Source: Parasedimentitalea psychrophila
GTDB taxonomy: Bacteria > Pseudomonadota > Alphaproteobacteria > Rhodobacterales > Rhodobacteraceae
Direction: 5' to 3'
DNA: 64,000 nt
Assembly (NCBI RefSeq): GCF_030285785.1
Contig: NZ_CP127247.1
Span: 2,751,501 to 2,815,500, forward strand
Shown: one piece after another, positions 44,353-57,194 of the stretch
Position numbering within the stretch: position 1 is the first letter of the stretch
Layout of the letters: each line of letters starts with the position of its first letter
Position numbers and translations under genes: made by a program
The notes under the pieces: generated by a model
What the model saw: only the letters and a program-made list of their open reading frames with translations
The model's database searches: none
Told to the model about the DNA's origin: nothing

Positions 44353-44459
44353 TCGGACGGATCACATATGATCAAGACGGTGAGTGACGGACACATAGCG
44401 CATGAATGGCCGCCTTCAGTAAGCCGCAGTGCAGAAAGCACAATCAACGCGTAAGTCGG

Positions 44460-44680
44460 CAAAGGGCCGTTCGAGCCCTGCCTGGGCGTTGAGTGACCCG
44501 ACTTTGCAAGGTACACAACCTGCGCATTGCTGCCATTGGTGACAAACACGCCTAACGGCAGCTGTCAGCCCTTCTACGACATTCGTGCTGAGTGCAGCAT
44601 AACGCGGTATATCGAGCACAAAGGGCGGATTCCGGTCATTCGCTGCAGTCAGCTCGAACGGCTGCATGCACAGGAAACTG
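44460..44680 (+). repeat. Dispersed mosaic repeat, modules A/B copy
   Basis: Contains CCGACTTTGCAAGGTACACA, GCGCATTGCTGCCATTGG, CCTAACGGCAGC, AGCCCTTCTACGACATTCGT, GTGCAGCATAACGCGGTATA, AAAGGGCGGATTCCGG and TTCGCTGCAGTCAGCTC. The modules are joined as a mosaic. No gene is supported between 44353 and 44878. Confidence 0.8.
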
Positions 44681-44878
44681 ACTTTGAAAACTGTAAGAGC
44701 TGCCCTTCTCAGACGGTCGAGCCCCTTCCAGGATAGACTACAAAGCTGCCGTTCGGAGCTCCTGCGGGTATCTGGGATCCCTTGAGCATTTTGGCAAACT
44801 ACTCCGCCGTTGGACATCCATGATCAAACCACCGTGTTGCCTGCCTGAAGTCGCCATTTCCTGCGGAAGGGCAAAAGT

Positions 44879-45772
44879 TTAATTCAGACCAAGGTATTCC
44901 AAGAACAAGCGGATTGCCGGGGTTTCCGCTCGTGCATTTGGAAAGACGCAAACGTAGTCTTTTTTCATCGGCAGGGTGACCTTGGAAGGTGAAATCAATG
45001 AACCGGAAGCAATATCAGAGTTTACAAGAATTGAGGGTGCAAGAGCGATACCGGCTTCTTGTTTTGCAGCCGAAATTGCTAGCGATGTGTCACTGAGGAC
45101 TAACCCCGGACTGGAGAGGGCGACCCCACCGGTTCCCGCTTCGCGACGCCAGTCCATCCAGACTGGTTCGCTGGCGTAACTCGGGCCCCATTTGTTATGA
45201 ATAAGCTTGGCATCGGGAACATTAGTCAGCATTCCTTCAGGGTCGGAGTACTGCGCCCAAAACGAAGGCGCACAGATCGGAACTGCAAAGTCGGAAAACA
45301 AGGGGATTTGGCGATATCCGGGGTAGAATGCAGAACCAAATGTCAGGCGAACATCAATCGCTTCCCGCTCGAAATCGATTGGGTCTTCCTGAACACGAAT
45401 GTCAAGGGACACTCCGGTCTTATCTCTGAAGCTTAAAGCCTTTGGGAGGAACCAGAGCTCAGACAAGGCGGGGAGTACACTGACGACCAATTGGCGGGTG
45501 CGTTTGTTGCTGCGCACGATCTGGGTCGCTTCGGAAAGCTCGCCAAAGGCGCGTGCAAGTTTCGGGTACATTTCCTCTCCGGCATCGGTCAGAGAAATAC
45601 GGTTTCCTTTGCGCAAGAATAGCTTTTTGCCCAGGTGATCTTCGAGACTTTTGACCTGCAAACTGACGGCTGCAGAACTGACGCCAAGTTCATTGCCTGC
45701 CAGCACAAAACTGCCGCATCTGGCTGCAACTTCAAAGGCTCGCAATCCGTTCAGGGAAGGTAGGTTCTGCAT
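44879..45772 (-). CDS. LysR-family regulator (GcvA-like) divergent from the lyase cluster
   Basis: The 297-residue protein starts MQNLPSLNGLRAFEVAARCG with the LysR helix-turn-helix (FVLAGNELGVSSAAVSLQVK, LGKKLFLR) and an effector domain (FAVPICAPSFWAQ, GIALAPSILVNSDI). ATG 45772 is chosen because the conserved N-terminus begins there; an upstream extension to 45865 would overlap the next gene. It diverges from the oxygenase/DddP-like/lyase cluster across ~90 bp and is the probable activator of those genes, with their substrate or an intermediate as inducer. Confidence 0.92.
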   Translation of the reverse strand: MQNLPSLNGLRAFEVAARCGSFVLAGNELGVSSAAVSLQVKSLEDHLGKKLFLRKGNRISLTDAGEEMYPKLARAFGELSEATQIVRSNKRTRQLVVSVLPALSELWFLPKALSFRDKTGVSLDIRVQEDPIDFEREAIDVRLTFGSAFYPGYRQIPLFSDFAVPICAPSFWAQYSDPEGMLTNVPDAKLIHNKWGPSYASEPVWMDWRREAGTGGVALSSPGLVLSDTSLAISAAKQEAGIALAPSILVNSDIASGSLISPSKVTLPMKKDYVCVFPNARAETPAIRLFLEYLGLN

Positions 45773-45863
45773 GTATACCCTAATTTTTCTTATGATACCC
45801 AATAATTGATCTGGTTGTGATCGTCCAGCACATGCGTTCAATGGAGGCAACGGAGGATGCGAC

Positions 45864-46655
45864 ATGAACCAGTTTATTGATCTTGAAAAATACCCATTGG
45901 ACCGCCCGGAAAGCGCGGAATATGCGGAACTGGTTGAAAAGTGTCAGGCTGACCTTGCCAGTGACGGAATGTTCAACCTGCCGGGTTTTTTGAAGCCCGG
46001 TGTGGCGCAGGCCGCAGCGGATGCTGCCAAACCGGCAATGGACACTGATTCATTCAGGCATGCTCGGCGTCACAATGTCTATTTCAGAGACACAGTGCCG
46101 GGTATCACCGATGATCACCCGGCAATGAAAAAAGTTGAGACCGTGAATCACACTCTGTGCGCCGACCAGTTGGCAGGCAACCCGGTGATTGATGTCTATG
46201 AATGGGCACCTTTTGCGGCGTTTCTGGCGGCAACCAAGGGCAAGGAAAAACTATATCAGATGGCCGACAAGATGGCGTGCGTGAACGTGCAGGCTACCCG
46301 TGACGGCGAGGGTTTGAACTGGCACTTTGACCGGTCGGAATTCACTACGACGATTCTGCTTCAGGCTTCGCAAGCTGGTGGGCAGCTAGAGTTTCGCAAA
46401 GACCTGCGATCGGCGGATGATCAGAACTTTGACGGTGTTGCGGCTGTGTTGGCCGGAGAAGACCCGGAAACCAAACAGTTAATGCCCGAACCAGGTGCGC
46501 TGAATGTTTTTCGAGGTGTAAATACACCACATCGCGTGGTGCCAGTCGAAGGGCCAACCGACCGGGTGATTGCAATCTTTTCCTACTATGAACGGCCCGG
46601 TGTGGGTTTTTCAGCCGAGGAACAGCAGGGATTTTATGGGCGCTCTGTCGCCTGA
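45864..46655 (+). CDS. Fe(II)/2-oxoglutarate-dependent oxygenase-like protein
   Basis: The 263-residue product carries a complete facial triad: H154 and D156 in LNWHFDRSEFTTTILLQ and H223 in NTPHRVVPVEGPTDRVIAIF, with R234 placed to bind 2-oxoglutarate. The pattern resembles the BesD/HalD-like group, but the Asp is retained where halogenases have Gly, so hydroxylation or another oxidative reaction is expected. GGAGG precedes ATG 45864. It is first in a cluster with the DddP-like and ammonia-lyase-like genes and would act on the same small molecule. Confidence 0.8.
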   Translation: MNQFIDLEKYPLDRPESAEYAELVEKCQADLASDGMFNLPGFLKPGVAQAAADAAKPAMDTDSFRHARRHNVYFRDTVPGITDDHPAMKKVETVNHTLCADQLAGNPVIDVYEWAPFAAFLAATKGKEKLYQMADKMACVNVQATRDGEGLNWHFDRSEFTTTILLQASQAGGQLEFRKDLRSADDQNFDGVAAVLAGEDPETKQLMPEPGALNVFRGVNTPHRVVPVEGPTDRVIAIFSYYERPGVGFSAEEQQGFYGRSVA

Positions 46656-46761
46656 CGCCTTTCAATCTCCTTTCGGGTTTTTCGGACGAAGGGGTCACAC
46701 AACATTATGACGTGCTCGCCCCTTTCGGGTGGCAGCCGATTCCTCACTACAGGATGCCACA

Positions 46762-48021
46762 ATGACTCAATCCCAGAGTGTCTTCAAAGATGATCGTAAG
46801 CTGACGTATTTGAACAGCGAAGGCGCAGATAAGCCGCTGATTAGCCCCGTTCCCAGGGCGACGTTGGACAAGGCACGCGCTTACCGTTTGGGTCGCCTTC
46901 GGGAGCAAATGGTGGCGCATGATGTGGGGGGGCTTTTGCTCTATGATCCCATCAACATCCGCTATGCATTCGACAGCTCAAACATGCAGGTCTGGACCGG
47001 CCACAATCCTGTACGGTATGCTCTGATCCTCGCTGACGGACCGGCGATCTTATGGGAGTTCAAGGGCTGCGAACATTTGAATGACGGCCTGGACGGTATT
47101 GATGAAATCCGCACTGCAGTCTCGTGGATGTTCATGACTAAGGGCGATAAGGCGCCGACTGGCGTCAATATATGGGCTGACGAAATTGCTGACGTTTTAC
47201 GCCAATATGGTGGCGGAAACACGCGCCTTGCCGCGGACAAACTGGATGGCCCAGGCCTGCATTCTCTAGAAAACCGTGGTTTCACCTTTGTTGAGGGGGC
47301 CGAGCTTACGGAACGGGCCCGGTCTATCAAATCAGTGGAAGAAGTCGAACTAATGCGCTGGACTATCCGCGTCTGCGAAGCGGGGATGGCGCGGATCTAC
47401 GAACACTCTGTCCCCGGCGCTACCGAACGTGAACTCTGGGCCCATCTTCACTTTGAAAACGCCCGGTCCGGCGGCGACTGGTTGGAAACCAAGCTGTTGG
47501 CCTGCGGGTCAAACACCAACCCCTGGTACACTGAGTGCTCTGATCGCATCTGTCAGAAAGGGGAAATGATATCCTTCGACACTGACATGATCGGCCCTTA
47601 CGGCTATTGCGCCGACCTGTCGCGCAGCTGGACCTGTGGCTATACGCCGATGAACAATACGCAAAAACGGATATATTCAACGGCGCTGGAGCAAATCAAT
47701 CACAACCTGACAATCCTAAGACCGGGGATGAGCTTTGCCGAGTACAACGACAAAAGCTGGCGCATCCCGGAAAAACACGCCGATTACCGCTATTCTCTTG
47801 CGGTTCACGGGGTTGGAATGGCAGACGAATGGCCGGTAATTCCCCTGCATGTTGACTTTGACGACACCGCAACGTCGGGGCGGATCGAACCGGGCATGGT
47901 GTTATGTGTTGAAAGCCTTGTCGCCGAGCAGGGATCGGAAAGCGTTAAACTGGAAACGCAGGTTTTGATAACTGACTCCGGTTATGAACGGTTGGACAGC
48001 TTTCCATGGGAGGCCATCTGA
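46762..48021 (+). CDS. DddP-like M24-family metalloenzyme
   Basis: The 419-residue protein aligns along its length with DddP, the M24-fold dimethylsulfoniopropionate lyase of marine Rhodobacteraceae (LLYDPINIRYAFDSSNMQVW, GHNPVRYALI, GGGNTRLAADK, CGSNTNPWYTECSDRICQKG). The six metal ligands known in DddP have counterparts here: D273, D275, D285, H349, E384 and E398, with an almost constant offset of 22. It is therefore a metal enzyme of the DddP group rather than a typical Xaa-Pro peptidase. Divergence from DddP as I remember it is considerable, so the substrate may be a different sulfonium or ammonium compound. ATG 46762 is used; the frame extends to 46729. Confidence 0.82.
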   Translation: MTQSQSVFKDDRKLTYLNSEGADKPLISPVPRATLDKARAYRLGRLREQMVAHDVGGLLLYDPINIRYAFDSSNMQVWTGHNPVRYALILADGPAILWEFKGCEHLNDGLDGIDEIRTAVSWMFMTKGDKAPTGVNIWADEIADVLRQYGGGNTRLAADKLDGPGLHSLENRGFTFVEGAELTERARSIKSVEEVELMRWTIRVCEAGMARIYEHSVPGATERELWAHLHFENARSGGDWLETKLLACGSNTNPWYTECSDRICQKGEMISFDTDMIGPYGYCADLSRSWTCGYTPMNNTQKRIYSTALEQINHNLTILRPGMSFAEYNDKSWRIPEKHADYRYSLAVHGVGMADEWPVIPLHVDFDDTATSGRIEPGMVLCVESLVAEQGSESVKLETQVLITDSGYERLDSFPWEAI

Positions 48022-48066
48022 TCTGGTGGTTTTTTGCGCGTTACAATCCTGTATTGAAAGCAAGCC

Positions 48067-49566
48067 ATGGCCAAATATTCCCTCCTGCCTTCCAGCGATC
48101 CAATTGTGCTGAACGGGGTATCGCTGACCTGTGCAGACCTTGTGGGGGCGGCACAACAGAAATCAAAAGTGACGTTTACGGAAGAATCCAGGGAACGGAT
48201 TCAAAAAGGTCGCGAGGTCGTGCAAGGCATCGTGGCCAGCGGCGTCCCTGGCTATGGGATTTCCACGGGGGTCGGATCGCAGAAGGATTTCAAGGTTTCT
48301 GCAGGCGGAGTGCAGGACTATAATCGCCGGCTGGCTCGGGCACATGCGACCCATGTCGGCGGTGCGGTGCTGCCAAAAAGTCGAGTGCGGGCTGCTTTGA
48401 TCATCCTAGTCAATGAGTTTTCGCTTGGATTGTCTGGCGTTTCGGAACCGTTGGTTCAACTGCTCACTGACCAAATCAACGGCGCAATAATGCCCGAGGT
48501 GTCGTCATATGGGACGGTTGGTGCCGCCGATCTAATACCGATGTCACAGATTGCGAATTGGCTGCAAAGCACGCCGGAAGCGCAGGAACTTGGTATCCCA
48601 GGACCAAAAGAGACACTGTCTCTGATCAATACCAACGCGATCACCCTGGCCACCGGTGCCGAAGTACTGATGGAAGCGCGCGACATTCTGGAGTTGGCTA
48701 ATCTATCCGTCGCATTTTCGCTTGAGGCGTTCCGCGGTAATCTTGATTCAATTTCTGAATCAGTGAATCTTGCGCATCGGCGTCGCGGGCAGGCGCAGGT
48801 TAGCGCGGATGTGCGCCACCTTCTGCGGAACAGCAAGCTCTGGAACGTTGGCCAAGCACGGCGCATTCAGGACCCGCTGAGTTTCCGCTGCGCATCACAG
48901 ATCCAAGGTGCTCTTAGCGAGTTACTCGACCGGGCAGTTGAGATCTGGGACCAAGAGTTGAATTCCGTTACAGACAATCCGATTGTTGATACCGCTGATC
49001 AATGCGTTCGCTCTCATGGCAATATGGATTCCACGCGCATGACCTTGGCCATAGATGGGTTGCGACAGGCGTTTGCCAAAACCCTGGATATCGCTGGCGA
49101 GCGTTTACACAAGCAACAATGGACAGAATTTTCCGGACTGCCAACGGGCTTCGCTGAGGCGAATAGCCCGCTGGGTGGCGTTCAGTTCCTGAACCTTGGT
49201 CATTTGGCGGCGTCCCTCATCACATCCGCCAAGATATGGGCCGCGCCTTCGCTGCTCTTGTCTGTCGGCCAACTGGCAGACGGAGTGGAAGACACAGCAG
49301 GCCATGCGTTACATTCGGTTGCTGACTTTGAACGTATCCTTGAAGCCGCCCGCCTGATTTTATCCATTGAGATTATAGTATCGATCTGGGCTATCAACAA
49401 ACGTGACCTGCCAACGTCAACATTGGGTGAAGGTCTTCGGGGCCACGCCGCTCAAATCACCCCGTTGTTGCCAATCGGAACTGAGGGAATGGACGTGTTT
49501 TCAATCGAACCGATTGTTGAAATTCTTCGTTCCCCCAGTCAGCACTGGAATTTCACATCTAAATAA
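48067..49566 (+). CDS. Aromatic ammonia-lyase (HAL/PAL) homologue lacking the MIO triad
   Basis: The 499-residue protein has the HAL/PAL fold signatures: Y63 in GYGISTGVGS, QDPLSFRCASQIQGAL near 268-283, NSVTDNPIV near 299-307, and the C-terminal helices. At the place where HAL has GSVGASGDLAPL it reads GTVGAADLIPM (149-159), so the Ala-Ser-Gly that cyclises to the MIO electrophile is absent and one residue is missing. It cannot be an ordinary histidine ammonia-lyase. MIO-free relatives such as ergothionase eliminate trimethylamine from betaines, a plausible kind of reaction here. It is third in the LysR-controlled cluster. Confidence 0.85.
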   Translation: MAKYSLLPSSDPIVLNGVSLTCADLVGAAQQKSKVTFTEESRERIQKGREVVQGIVASGVPGYGISTGVGSQKDFKVSAGGVQDYNRRLARAHATHVGGAVLPKSRVRAALIILVNEFSLGLSGVSEPLVQLLTDQINGAIMPEVSSYGTVGAADLIPMSQIANWLQSTPEAQELGIPGPKETLSLINTNAITLATGAEVLMEARDILELANLSVAFSLEAFRGNLDSISESVNLAHRRRGQAQVSADVRHLLRNSKLWNVGQARRIQDPLSFRCASQIQGALSELLDRAVEIWDQELNSVTDNPIVDTADQCVRSHGNMDSTRMTLAIDGLRQAFAKTLDIAGERLHKQQWTEFSGLPTGFAEANSPLGGVQFLNLGHLAASLITSAKIWAAPSLLLSVGQLADGVEDTAGHALHSVADFERILEAARLILSIEIIVSIWAINKRDLPTSTLGEGLRGHAAQITPLLPIGTEGMDVFSIEPIVEILRSPSQHWNFTSK

Positions 49567-49789: not shown

Positions 49790-50160
49790 TTAGACGGGTT
49801 TGTCACGAAAGTCCGTTCAAGGCCGTTCGCGACATGTCGGCGCGTCCTGGGAGCCGACTTTGCAAAGGTCAATAACTGCGCTTAGCTGCCGTTGGTGCAG
49901 ATCTCAGCGAAGGTCCGTAACCCGCCCTTAGTGACGAAATGTGCAGGGCGCAGAAATCAGGCCACTTCCTCTCCCCTCAAGGTCACTAACGGCCCTAACC
50001 GGACCTTGGCGCACAATGCGTCTAACGGCGGCTCCCAGCCCTTCTACGACATTCGTGCCGGGTGCAGCATGACGCGGCATATGGGGCACTAAGGGCGGTA
50101 AGGAGCCATTCGCTGCGGTCAACTCCAAGGGCTGCTATTAGCAGATTGAGACCTTTGTAG
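49790..50160. repeat. Dispersed mosaic repeat, modules A (reverse) and B
   Basis: A reverse module A (CGACATGTCGGCGCGTCCTG, CCGACTTTGCAAAGGTCAAT, CCGCCCTTAGTGACGAAATG) is joined to a forward module B (GCGTCTAACGGCGGCTCCC, AGCCCTTCTACGACATTCGT, GTGCAGCATGACGCGGCATA, GGGGCACTAAGGGCGG). The 0.9-kb gap 49567-50467 shows no gene besides this. Confidence 0.85.
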
Positions 50161-56159: not shown

Positions 56160-57194
56160 TCATACCTTGCCTCCCACCTGGTCCTGACGGAATTCCGTGC
56201 CGTCTATCCACATGCGATGCAGTAGAACTGCGAGCTTGCGTGCAACCGCGACAACAGCTCTGCGGCGACCTTTTGTGCGCATCAGCCGCATACCCCAAGA
56301 TTTGGTCTGAGACCCGGCCATTGTTCGTATGAGCAAAGCGTTGGCGGCTGCGTACAACGTTGCTCGGACATCCCGGTCGCCCGCTTTTGATATACGGCCG
56401 GGATTGTCGTGCTCACCCGACTGATATCGTCTCGGCGTCAGGCCAAAATGTGCGCCAACAGTCCGTGACTTCTTGAAGCGCGTCGGATCATCGACAGCGG
56501 CTTTGAAGGTCAAAGACGCAATTGGCCCAACGCCTGGAACGGTCATCATCCGCATGCAAACTTCATCACGGCTGGCGGCCCGTTTGACCCGTCGATCCAG
56601 CTCCAGAAAATGCTGATACAAAACCACACGTGCATCCAAGAGCGGCACCAAAGCATGAGCCAGAACATCATCCATCTCGATCAAGGCCCGGACGACGCCA
56701 TCAAAACTGCCGTGCTTCACGGTCTTGGGCAGGCGAATGCCAAATATCTTCAATAACCCGCGCACCTCATTGGCCAAATCCATTGTCTTCTTCAGCAATG
56801 CCTTACGTGTGCTGAGCAAGGCACGGACACCATGGGCCTCTCGGCTCTTCATATGCACCGGGCTAAACCAGCCGGTACGCAGAACCTGGGCGATCCCGCG
56901 TGCGTCGTTCTTATCTGTCTTGTTGCGCATCGCTGACAGCGCGGCATTGACTTGCCGTGCCTCCATGCAAACGACTTCGAAGCCTTCTGCTTCCAAACCG
57001 AAGTACAGGTGTTGGCTCATGGTGCCCGCTTCAAAGCCGCTCCGTTCAATCGGATGCGGGAAGTCGGCGAGGCACTCAGCAATATCCTTGATCTCGCAAG
57101 GCAGTTCGCGCTCGAACAGCGTCGTTCCCTTACTATCAACAATGCAAAGCGCACAGGATCGTAGCGAAACGTCTAATCCGGCAAAATACTCCAT
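56160..57194 (-). CDS. IS110-family transposase
   Basis: The intact 344-residue protein has the RuvC-like DEDD start (MEYFAGLDVSLRSCALCIVD, GFEAGTMSQHLYFGLEAEGF, KTDKNDARGIAQVL) and the C-terminal transposase_20 region (VPGVGPIASLTFKAAVDDPT, GAHFGLTPRRYQSGEHDNPG), with the catalytic Ser expected in GRISKAGDRDVR. Length and motifs indicate an active enzyme. It is the only complete IS transposase in the window. Confidence 0.95.
   Translation of the reverse strand: MEYFAGLDVSLRSCALCIVDSKGTTLFERELPCEIKDIAECLADFPHPIERSGFEAGTMSQHLYFGLEAEGFEVVCMEARQVNAALSAMRNKTDKNDARGIAQVLRTGWFSPVHMKSREAHGVRALLSTRKALLKKTMDLANEVRGLLKIFGIRLPKTVKHGSFDGVVRALIEMDDVLAHALVPLLDARVVLYQHFLELDRRVKRAASRDEVCMRMMTVPGVGPIASLTFKAAVDDPTRFKKSRTVGAHFGLTPRRYQSGEHDNPGRISKAGDRDVRATLYAAANALLIRTMAGSQTKSWGMRLMRTKGRRRAVVAVARKLAVLLHRMWIDGTEFRQDQVGGKV

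Follow-up and report, generated by a model that had tools for sequence, protein, structure and literature searches.

What could a cell use a small gene cluster for in which an oxygenase, a metal-dependent M24 enzyme and a lyase homologue stand together behind a divergent LysR-type regulator? This question is raised by positions 44,879 to 49,566 of the window, by which we mean the whole 64,000-nucleotide stretch analyzed here (Parasedimentitalea psychrophila, assembly GCF_030285785.1, contig NZ_CP127247.1, positions 2,751,501 to 2,815,500 of the forward strand). A previous sequence-only reading had proposed four genes at this place, and open reading frames (ORFs) together with family profiles located all of them there: a LysR regulator on the minus strand (44879..45772) and, on the plus strand, a 2-oxoglutarate (2OG)-Fe(II) oxygenase of the HalD-like fold family (45864..46655), a DddP-like M24 dinuclear-metal enzyme (46762..48021) and a homologue of aromatic amino-acid lyases that is free of the 4-methylideneimidazole-5-one (MIO) group (48067..49566). 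The gaps between these three enzyme genes, hereafter the trio, are 106 bp from oxygenase to M24 and 45 bp from M24 to lyase. Our answer, given with modest confidence, is that the trio constitutes an operon under LysR control that serves the catabolism of an imported N-methylated amino-acid derivative of the quaternary ammonium, betaine type.

We turned first to the lyase homologue, which matches the profile of the MIO ammonia-lyase family (Pfam Lyase_aromatic, 295.5 bits) and whose closest solved structure is ergothionase (Protein Data Bank (PDB) 6s7j, E 1.4e-42), followed by histidine ammonia-lyases (HALs). In the alignment its MIO loop reads GTVGA-ADL versus GSVGASGDL and is thus one residue shorter: The Ala-Ser-Gly triad, whose loss had been proposed earlier, is indeed missing at this site by a one-residue deletion. 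Moreover, Leu271 occupies the position of the catalytic Tyr280 of HAL that characterizes MIO enzymes, and therefore two features of MIO chemistry are lost, not one. Both features go together among the 56 aligned lyase locus rows, which include overlapping fetches of one gene: GASGDL is present in nine, all with a tyrosine at the Tyr280 position, and absent from 47, all with leucine or isoleucine there. The only Ala-Ser-Gly of the window lyase (residues 57-59) lies just before Tyr63; in the alignment this is not the MIO site, and we read the tripeptide as a chance occurrence. Other HAL positions are kept, including the tyrosine that was said to be retained: Tyr63, His93, Asn188, Arg274 and Glu408 align with Tyr53, His83, Asn195, Arg283 and Glu414 of HAL in the usual numbering (for Tyr280 that of P. 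putida HAL).

Is the window lyase, then, an ergothionase? Like the enzyme from Treponema denticola (6s7j), it has a HAL fold by sequence, the one-residue deletion in the MIO loop, leucine at the Tyr280 position, the DPLSFRCA motif and the Tyr, His, Arg and Glu positions. Unlike it, the window lyase is drawn at a separate place in the tree, has another gene context, shares only 28% identity with ergothionase and differs in the residues around Asn195 and Phe329. In a tree of 39 rows (20 of 59 were dropped as repeats or partial frames), the copies from trio loci group with those from oxygenase-lyase loci in a single clade (100/100) inside a clade of 15 rows (100/100), which is separate from the MIO enzymes and from another MIO-free group; ergothionase is drawn outside on a long branch (2.06), with its fork open. 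Because the tree gives no support, we rejected ergothionase as a family name. MIO-free homologues are thus a broad set, many of them annotated hutH, of which the window lyase is one lineage. A structure of the 48067-49566 product predicted from an alignment of seven sequences (mean pLDDT 48.2, pTM 0.56) retrieved ergothionase first (Foldseek E 1.8e-12) and HAL next, with a TM score of 0.45 and a root-mean-square deviation of 16; it indicates the family and is too weak for a view of the pocket or for the superposition on HAL and ergothionase that had been envisaged.

As ergothionase is the best solved relative, the window lyase might be a hercynine or ergothioneine trimethylamine-lyase that yields urocanate or thiourocanate, as is predicted for its sister clade. 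This alternative draws on the neighborhoods of that clade: In two families (L039:7954-11086 and L041:7501-10631), a complete hut operon ends with a sister-clade MIO-free lyase (46% and 48% identity), which directly follows HutU and stands beside a normal MIO HutH. The simplest reading is that these two are hercynine trimethylamine-lyases, predicted to feed urocanase. In L116, furthermore, an oxygenase-M24 pair adjoins a hut operon in convergent orientation. For the window copy, however, the genomic background is different. A genome search gave a single lyase match and thus no HutH, and urocanase is represented only by a decayed fragment in a broken region of contig 1 near 1.52 Mb (L048:9103-9798), whereas all 14 other genomes tested, seven of them from the genus Parasedimentitalea, have a full-length urocanase match. 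Hercynine and ergothioneine, earlier named among the compounds to assay, are therefore less likely as substrates in this genome. The active-site neighbors differ as well, with RCA and LINTN in the window lyase versus RNV or RDA and LINCN or MINCN in the hut-linked copies, and the tree sets ergothionase, on its long and unsure branch, outside the clade. We consequently regard this alternative as unlikely; an intact trio without a hut route suggests either another substrate or the use of the amine only.

The M24 protein, for which we took the ATG at 46762 as the start (the ORF list gives a GTG at 46729), raises the analogous question with respect to DddP, the lyase of dimethylsulfoniopropionate (DMSP). 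Its best PDB matches are the DddP structures 4rzy and 4b28, at about 41% identity to solved DddP, and in the alignment, whose DddP-like rows include repeats of the same gene, it keeps all six DddP metal ligands, in agreement with the earlier claim, as well as Tyr366 and Asp377. PMC4108388 describes these residues as metal ligands and as proposed catalytic residues, respectively. Given this retention, the trio could belong to a sulfonium pathway of the DMSP type with the M24 protein as DMSP lyase; but against the NCBIfam DddP equivalog model the protein scores 400 bits, below the cut-off of 600. Moreover, a separate DddP-type group that is 66-82% identical to 4rzy and carries HGVGLCDEWP is present in many genomes of the same family, whereas the clade of the window protein, which is tied to the oxygenases, reaches 35-41% and carries HGVGMADEWP or a near variant. 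Since the neighbors on plasmids are also betaine and not DMSP genes, we consider a DMSP pathway very improbable.

The oxygenase scores above the cut-off of Pfam HalD (39.8 versus 26 bits) and has HalB as its best PDB match (E 0.0053), which relates it to 2OG-Fe(II) enzymes of the HalB/HalD/BesD type. Unlike these halogenases, however, it carries HFD where HalB carries HxG: A facial triad of His154-x-Asp156 and His223 is completed by the 2OG-binding Arg234, and these HDHR residues are conserved in 85 of 85 aligned rows. Within the HalD-like group, such an HxD-H triad with arginine marks the protein as being of the hydroxylase type, and a halogenase role was rejected on the same ground. A structure predicted from five sequences (mean pLDDT 35.8) was discarded.

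From the gene content, conserved residues, recurrence and neighborhoods that we observed, we infer the substrate class, the order of steps and each reaction of the betaine-type operon. In the lyase, Tyr63 would act as the base that removes the proton next to the onium-bearing carbon while Arg274 would hold the substrate carboxylate, and a tertiary amine would be expelled without MIO. The loss of MIO would be explained in this way because a tertiary-amine leaving group needs no MIO electrophile. The oxygenase may hydroxylate or oxidatively demethylate the substrate or the product, and the M24 protein may act on the same compound or on the next intermediate, either as a DddP-like elimination enzyme that breaks a C-N bond or as a hydrolase. 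Only tentatively, and with considerable reservation, do we propose a more specific version, which would be a betaine route not described before: The 2OG hydroxylase would prime an aromatic or heteroaromatic betaine, the MIO-free lyase of the new lineage would expel the tertiary amine, the M24 enzyme would break a C-N instead of a C-S onium bond, and the sister clade would be the hercynine trimethylamine-lyase of hut operons.

Does the trio recur as a unit? A neighborhood survey bore out its recurrence in three further genomes of the genus Parasedimentitalea and in two other genera. The genes are contiguous in the window, G296, G297, G298 and G086; in G009 the order is oxygenase, lyase (read in two frames), M24. 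Five of the eight genomes of the genus, the window genome included, have the lyase. At the level of the family, with one genome per genus, the lyase (E <1e-80) was found in 6 of 295 genomes; in a sample of 290, the oxygenase (at least 50% identity) was present in 35 genomes and the M24 clade in 17. When the two samples are treated as one, all three pairs co-occur across genera. For lyase and M24 clade (5 of 6 versus 12 of 284 genomes), Fisher's test gives 2e-6, and 3e-5 if the window genome is left out; the corresponding values are 1e-4 and 7e-4 for lyase and oxygenase, and 8e-14 and 6e-13 for oxygenase and M24. A long distance separates the lyase from the oxygenase-M24 pair in G270 and G141, two of the five genomes with lyase and M24. 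A sample of 398 genomes of the phylum gave a lyase match at 1e-60 in three, counting the window genome.

Partial sets are found, too. Among 32 oxygenase loci of the family (36 minus L119, L130, L135 and L144, in which no oxygenase was called), LysR is adjacent in 17, M24 lies within two genes in 13 and both apply in 10; LysR-oxygenase-M24 without lyase (10 loci) is commoner than the trio. An oxygenase-Rieske arrangement occurs in L131, L134 and L148, and an M24-lyase pair stands at a contig edge in L004. The M24 match ahead of the L002 lyase covers only the final 60 residues. Since the LysR-oxygenase-M24, oxygenase-lyase and oxygenase-Rieske arrangements all occur, the unit is not the trio but a modular set.

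The oxygenase-lyase pairs without M24 (L006 and L007) have an ATP-binding cassette (ABC) transporter of the SBP_bac_5, oligopeptide type upstream, which bears on a third alternative: The substrate might be amide- or peptide-like, with the M24 protein as a creatinase- or prolidase-like hydrolase, the oxygenase hydroxylating an amino acid and the lyase acting on the released product. M24 is a hydrolase family, relatives of the window protein are annotated as Xaa-Pro peptidases, and described HalD and BesD relatives act on free amino acids. Yet the same transporter type accompanies a carnitine-oxygenase-like Rieske protein in L131 and L134, the M24 protein retains Tyr366 and Asp377 of DddP, and the window lyase is devoid of the MIO expected for primary amines, which leaves an amide or peptide substrate improbable in our judgment.

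What points to betaines is the company that relatives of all three enzymes keep. For the lyase, L040 carries genes for a dimethylglycine-dehydrogenase-like (DMGDH-like) protein, an MttB-like protein, the lyase (37%) and a Rieske protein on a single strand. For the oxygenase, L131 and L134 combine it with Rieske and ABC transporter genes, the former locus additionally with an MttB-like and a flavin mononucleotide (FMN) oxidoreductase gene, while carnitine monooxygenase is nearest to the L134 Rieske protein among solved structures; a Mesorhizobium plasmid has LysR, MttB-like, Ldh, oxygenase, Rieske and solute-binding protein genes. For M24, such neighbors are LysR, MttB-like, FMN oxidoreductase and solute-binding protein (L141 and L142), LysR, Rieske and reductase in identical layout in two Rhizobium strains, where 4-hydroxyproline epimerase and a glycine betaine/proline transporter adjoin, BCCT transporters, Rieske and aldehyde dehydrogenase in Pseudomonas MPC6 (52%), sarcosine oxidase, betaine-homocysteine methyltransferase and MttB-like in Terrarubrum, and Rieske and reductase in Paraburkholderia (49%). 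The plasmid stretches examined numbered 11, three of them without annotated features. A 'hutH' on pRL12 of R. johnstonii 3841 (L152:8989-10494) lacks the MIO triad, is flanked by hutC and the gene of a glycine betaine binding protein and is probably misannotated; a Sinorhizobium MIO-free lyase is found with flavin oxidoreductases. In L042 (8983-12196), a UbiD-type decarboxylase follows the MIO-free lyase (44%), which fits an unsaturated acid as product and hints at one of the arylacrylate type. FolE2, TrkH and cystathionine-synthase-like neighbors (L111-L115, L127 and L138) were rejected as a clue to the substrate and attributed to shared synteny. Because relatives of all three enzymes adjoin betaine genes in some genomes, an onium or betaine-type compound is the best guess, which supports the earlier proposal of such a compound class.

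Several observations weigh against the betaine-type operon. Any of the betaine-type genes probed (MttB-like, Rieske, DMGDH-like, FMN oxidoreductase, DAO and SBP5), some of them generic, occurs at only 9 of the 32 oxygenase loci. MttB-like genes are found at four loci versus 1.0 expected (P 0.02), an enrichment that is weak because such genes are common (283 in 40 genomes); two in-frame stops interrupt one of the four. Among the M24 copies, that of G086 has an asparagine in place of the ligand Asp307, and that of G036 is broken with its frame lost. In the genome, no type III glutamine-synthetase or GmaS-like protein scores over the cut-off (best 239.4 versus 469.6 bits), and hence nothing points to use of methylamines by the N-methylglutamate route. 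Within the window, neither a transporter nor an MttB-like gene adjoins the trio. The notion of a complete catabolic cassette must be narrowed accordingly: All four genes are present, but they belong to a modular set with no transporter beside it, and 'complete' and 'catabolic' are matters of interpretation.

Compared with known systems, a betaine catabolic operon is a known kind of system. Rieske proteins of the CntA/betaine oxygenase type replace the lyase or M24 beside the same type of oxygenase or M24 elsewhere; unlike in CntA systems, no Rieske gene stands beside the window trio. Yan, Huang and Zhang, as cited in PMC13405746, reportedly presented an ergothioneine sulfonate catabolic pathway in 2022, which by its title and context would be a trimethylamine-lyase pathway. 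A search of the open-licence literature yielded no description of this lyase lineage, of the M24 clade or of their pairing with a 2OG oxygenase, which may exist elsewhere. If the betaine-type operon is real, many genes annotated 'histidine ammonia-lyase' and 'Xaa-Pro peptidase' in marine and plant-associated Alphaproteobacteria would belong to betaine catabolism, and part of betaine catabolism by these misnamed genes would be a source of tertiary amines. Both misnamed families would then have testable reactions, with the lyases of hut operons predicted to convert hercynine to urocanate and trimethylamine.

The regulator combines Pfam HTH_1 and LysR_substrate domains and is GcvA-like, scoring 221.8 bits against NCBIfam GcvA, below the cut-off of 288. 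Its longest ORF spans 44879-45865; because same-genus homologues of 297 amino acids begin at an internal methionine, the start is likely near 45772, about 90 bp from the oxygenase start. The divergent promoter region in between (45773..45863) carries the block TTCTTATG about 70 bp upstream of the oxygenase start. Of 14 upstream regions aligned, eight share this block, four of the eight from the genus Parasedimentitalea, and it is a possible LysR site.

Beyond the cluster, an intergenic repeat family flanks it at 44420-44700 and 49820-50135, with many further copies in intergenic gaps of the window. Genome-wide it has 45 matches, almost all of which fall into the section of contig 1 from 2.24 to 4.47 Mb. 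As the repeat is this widespread, we rejected it as a sign of cassette mobility. Further downstream, at 56160-57194, lies an ORF that, judged by eye, resembles an IS110-type transposase.

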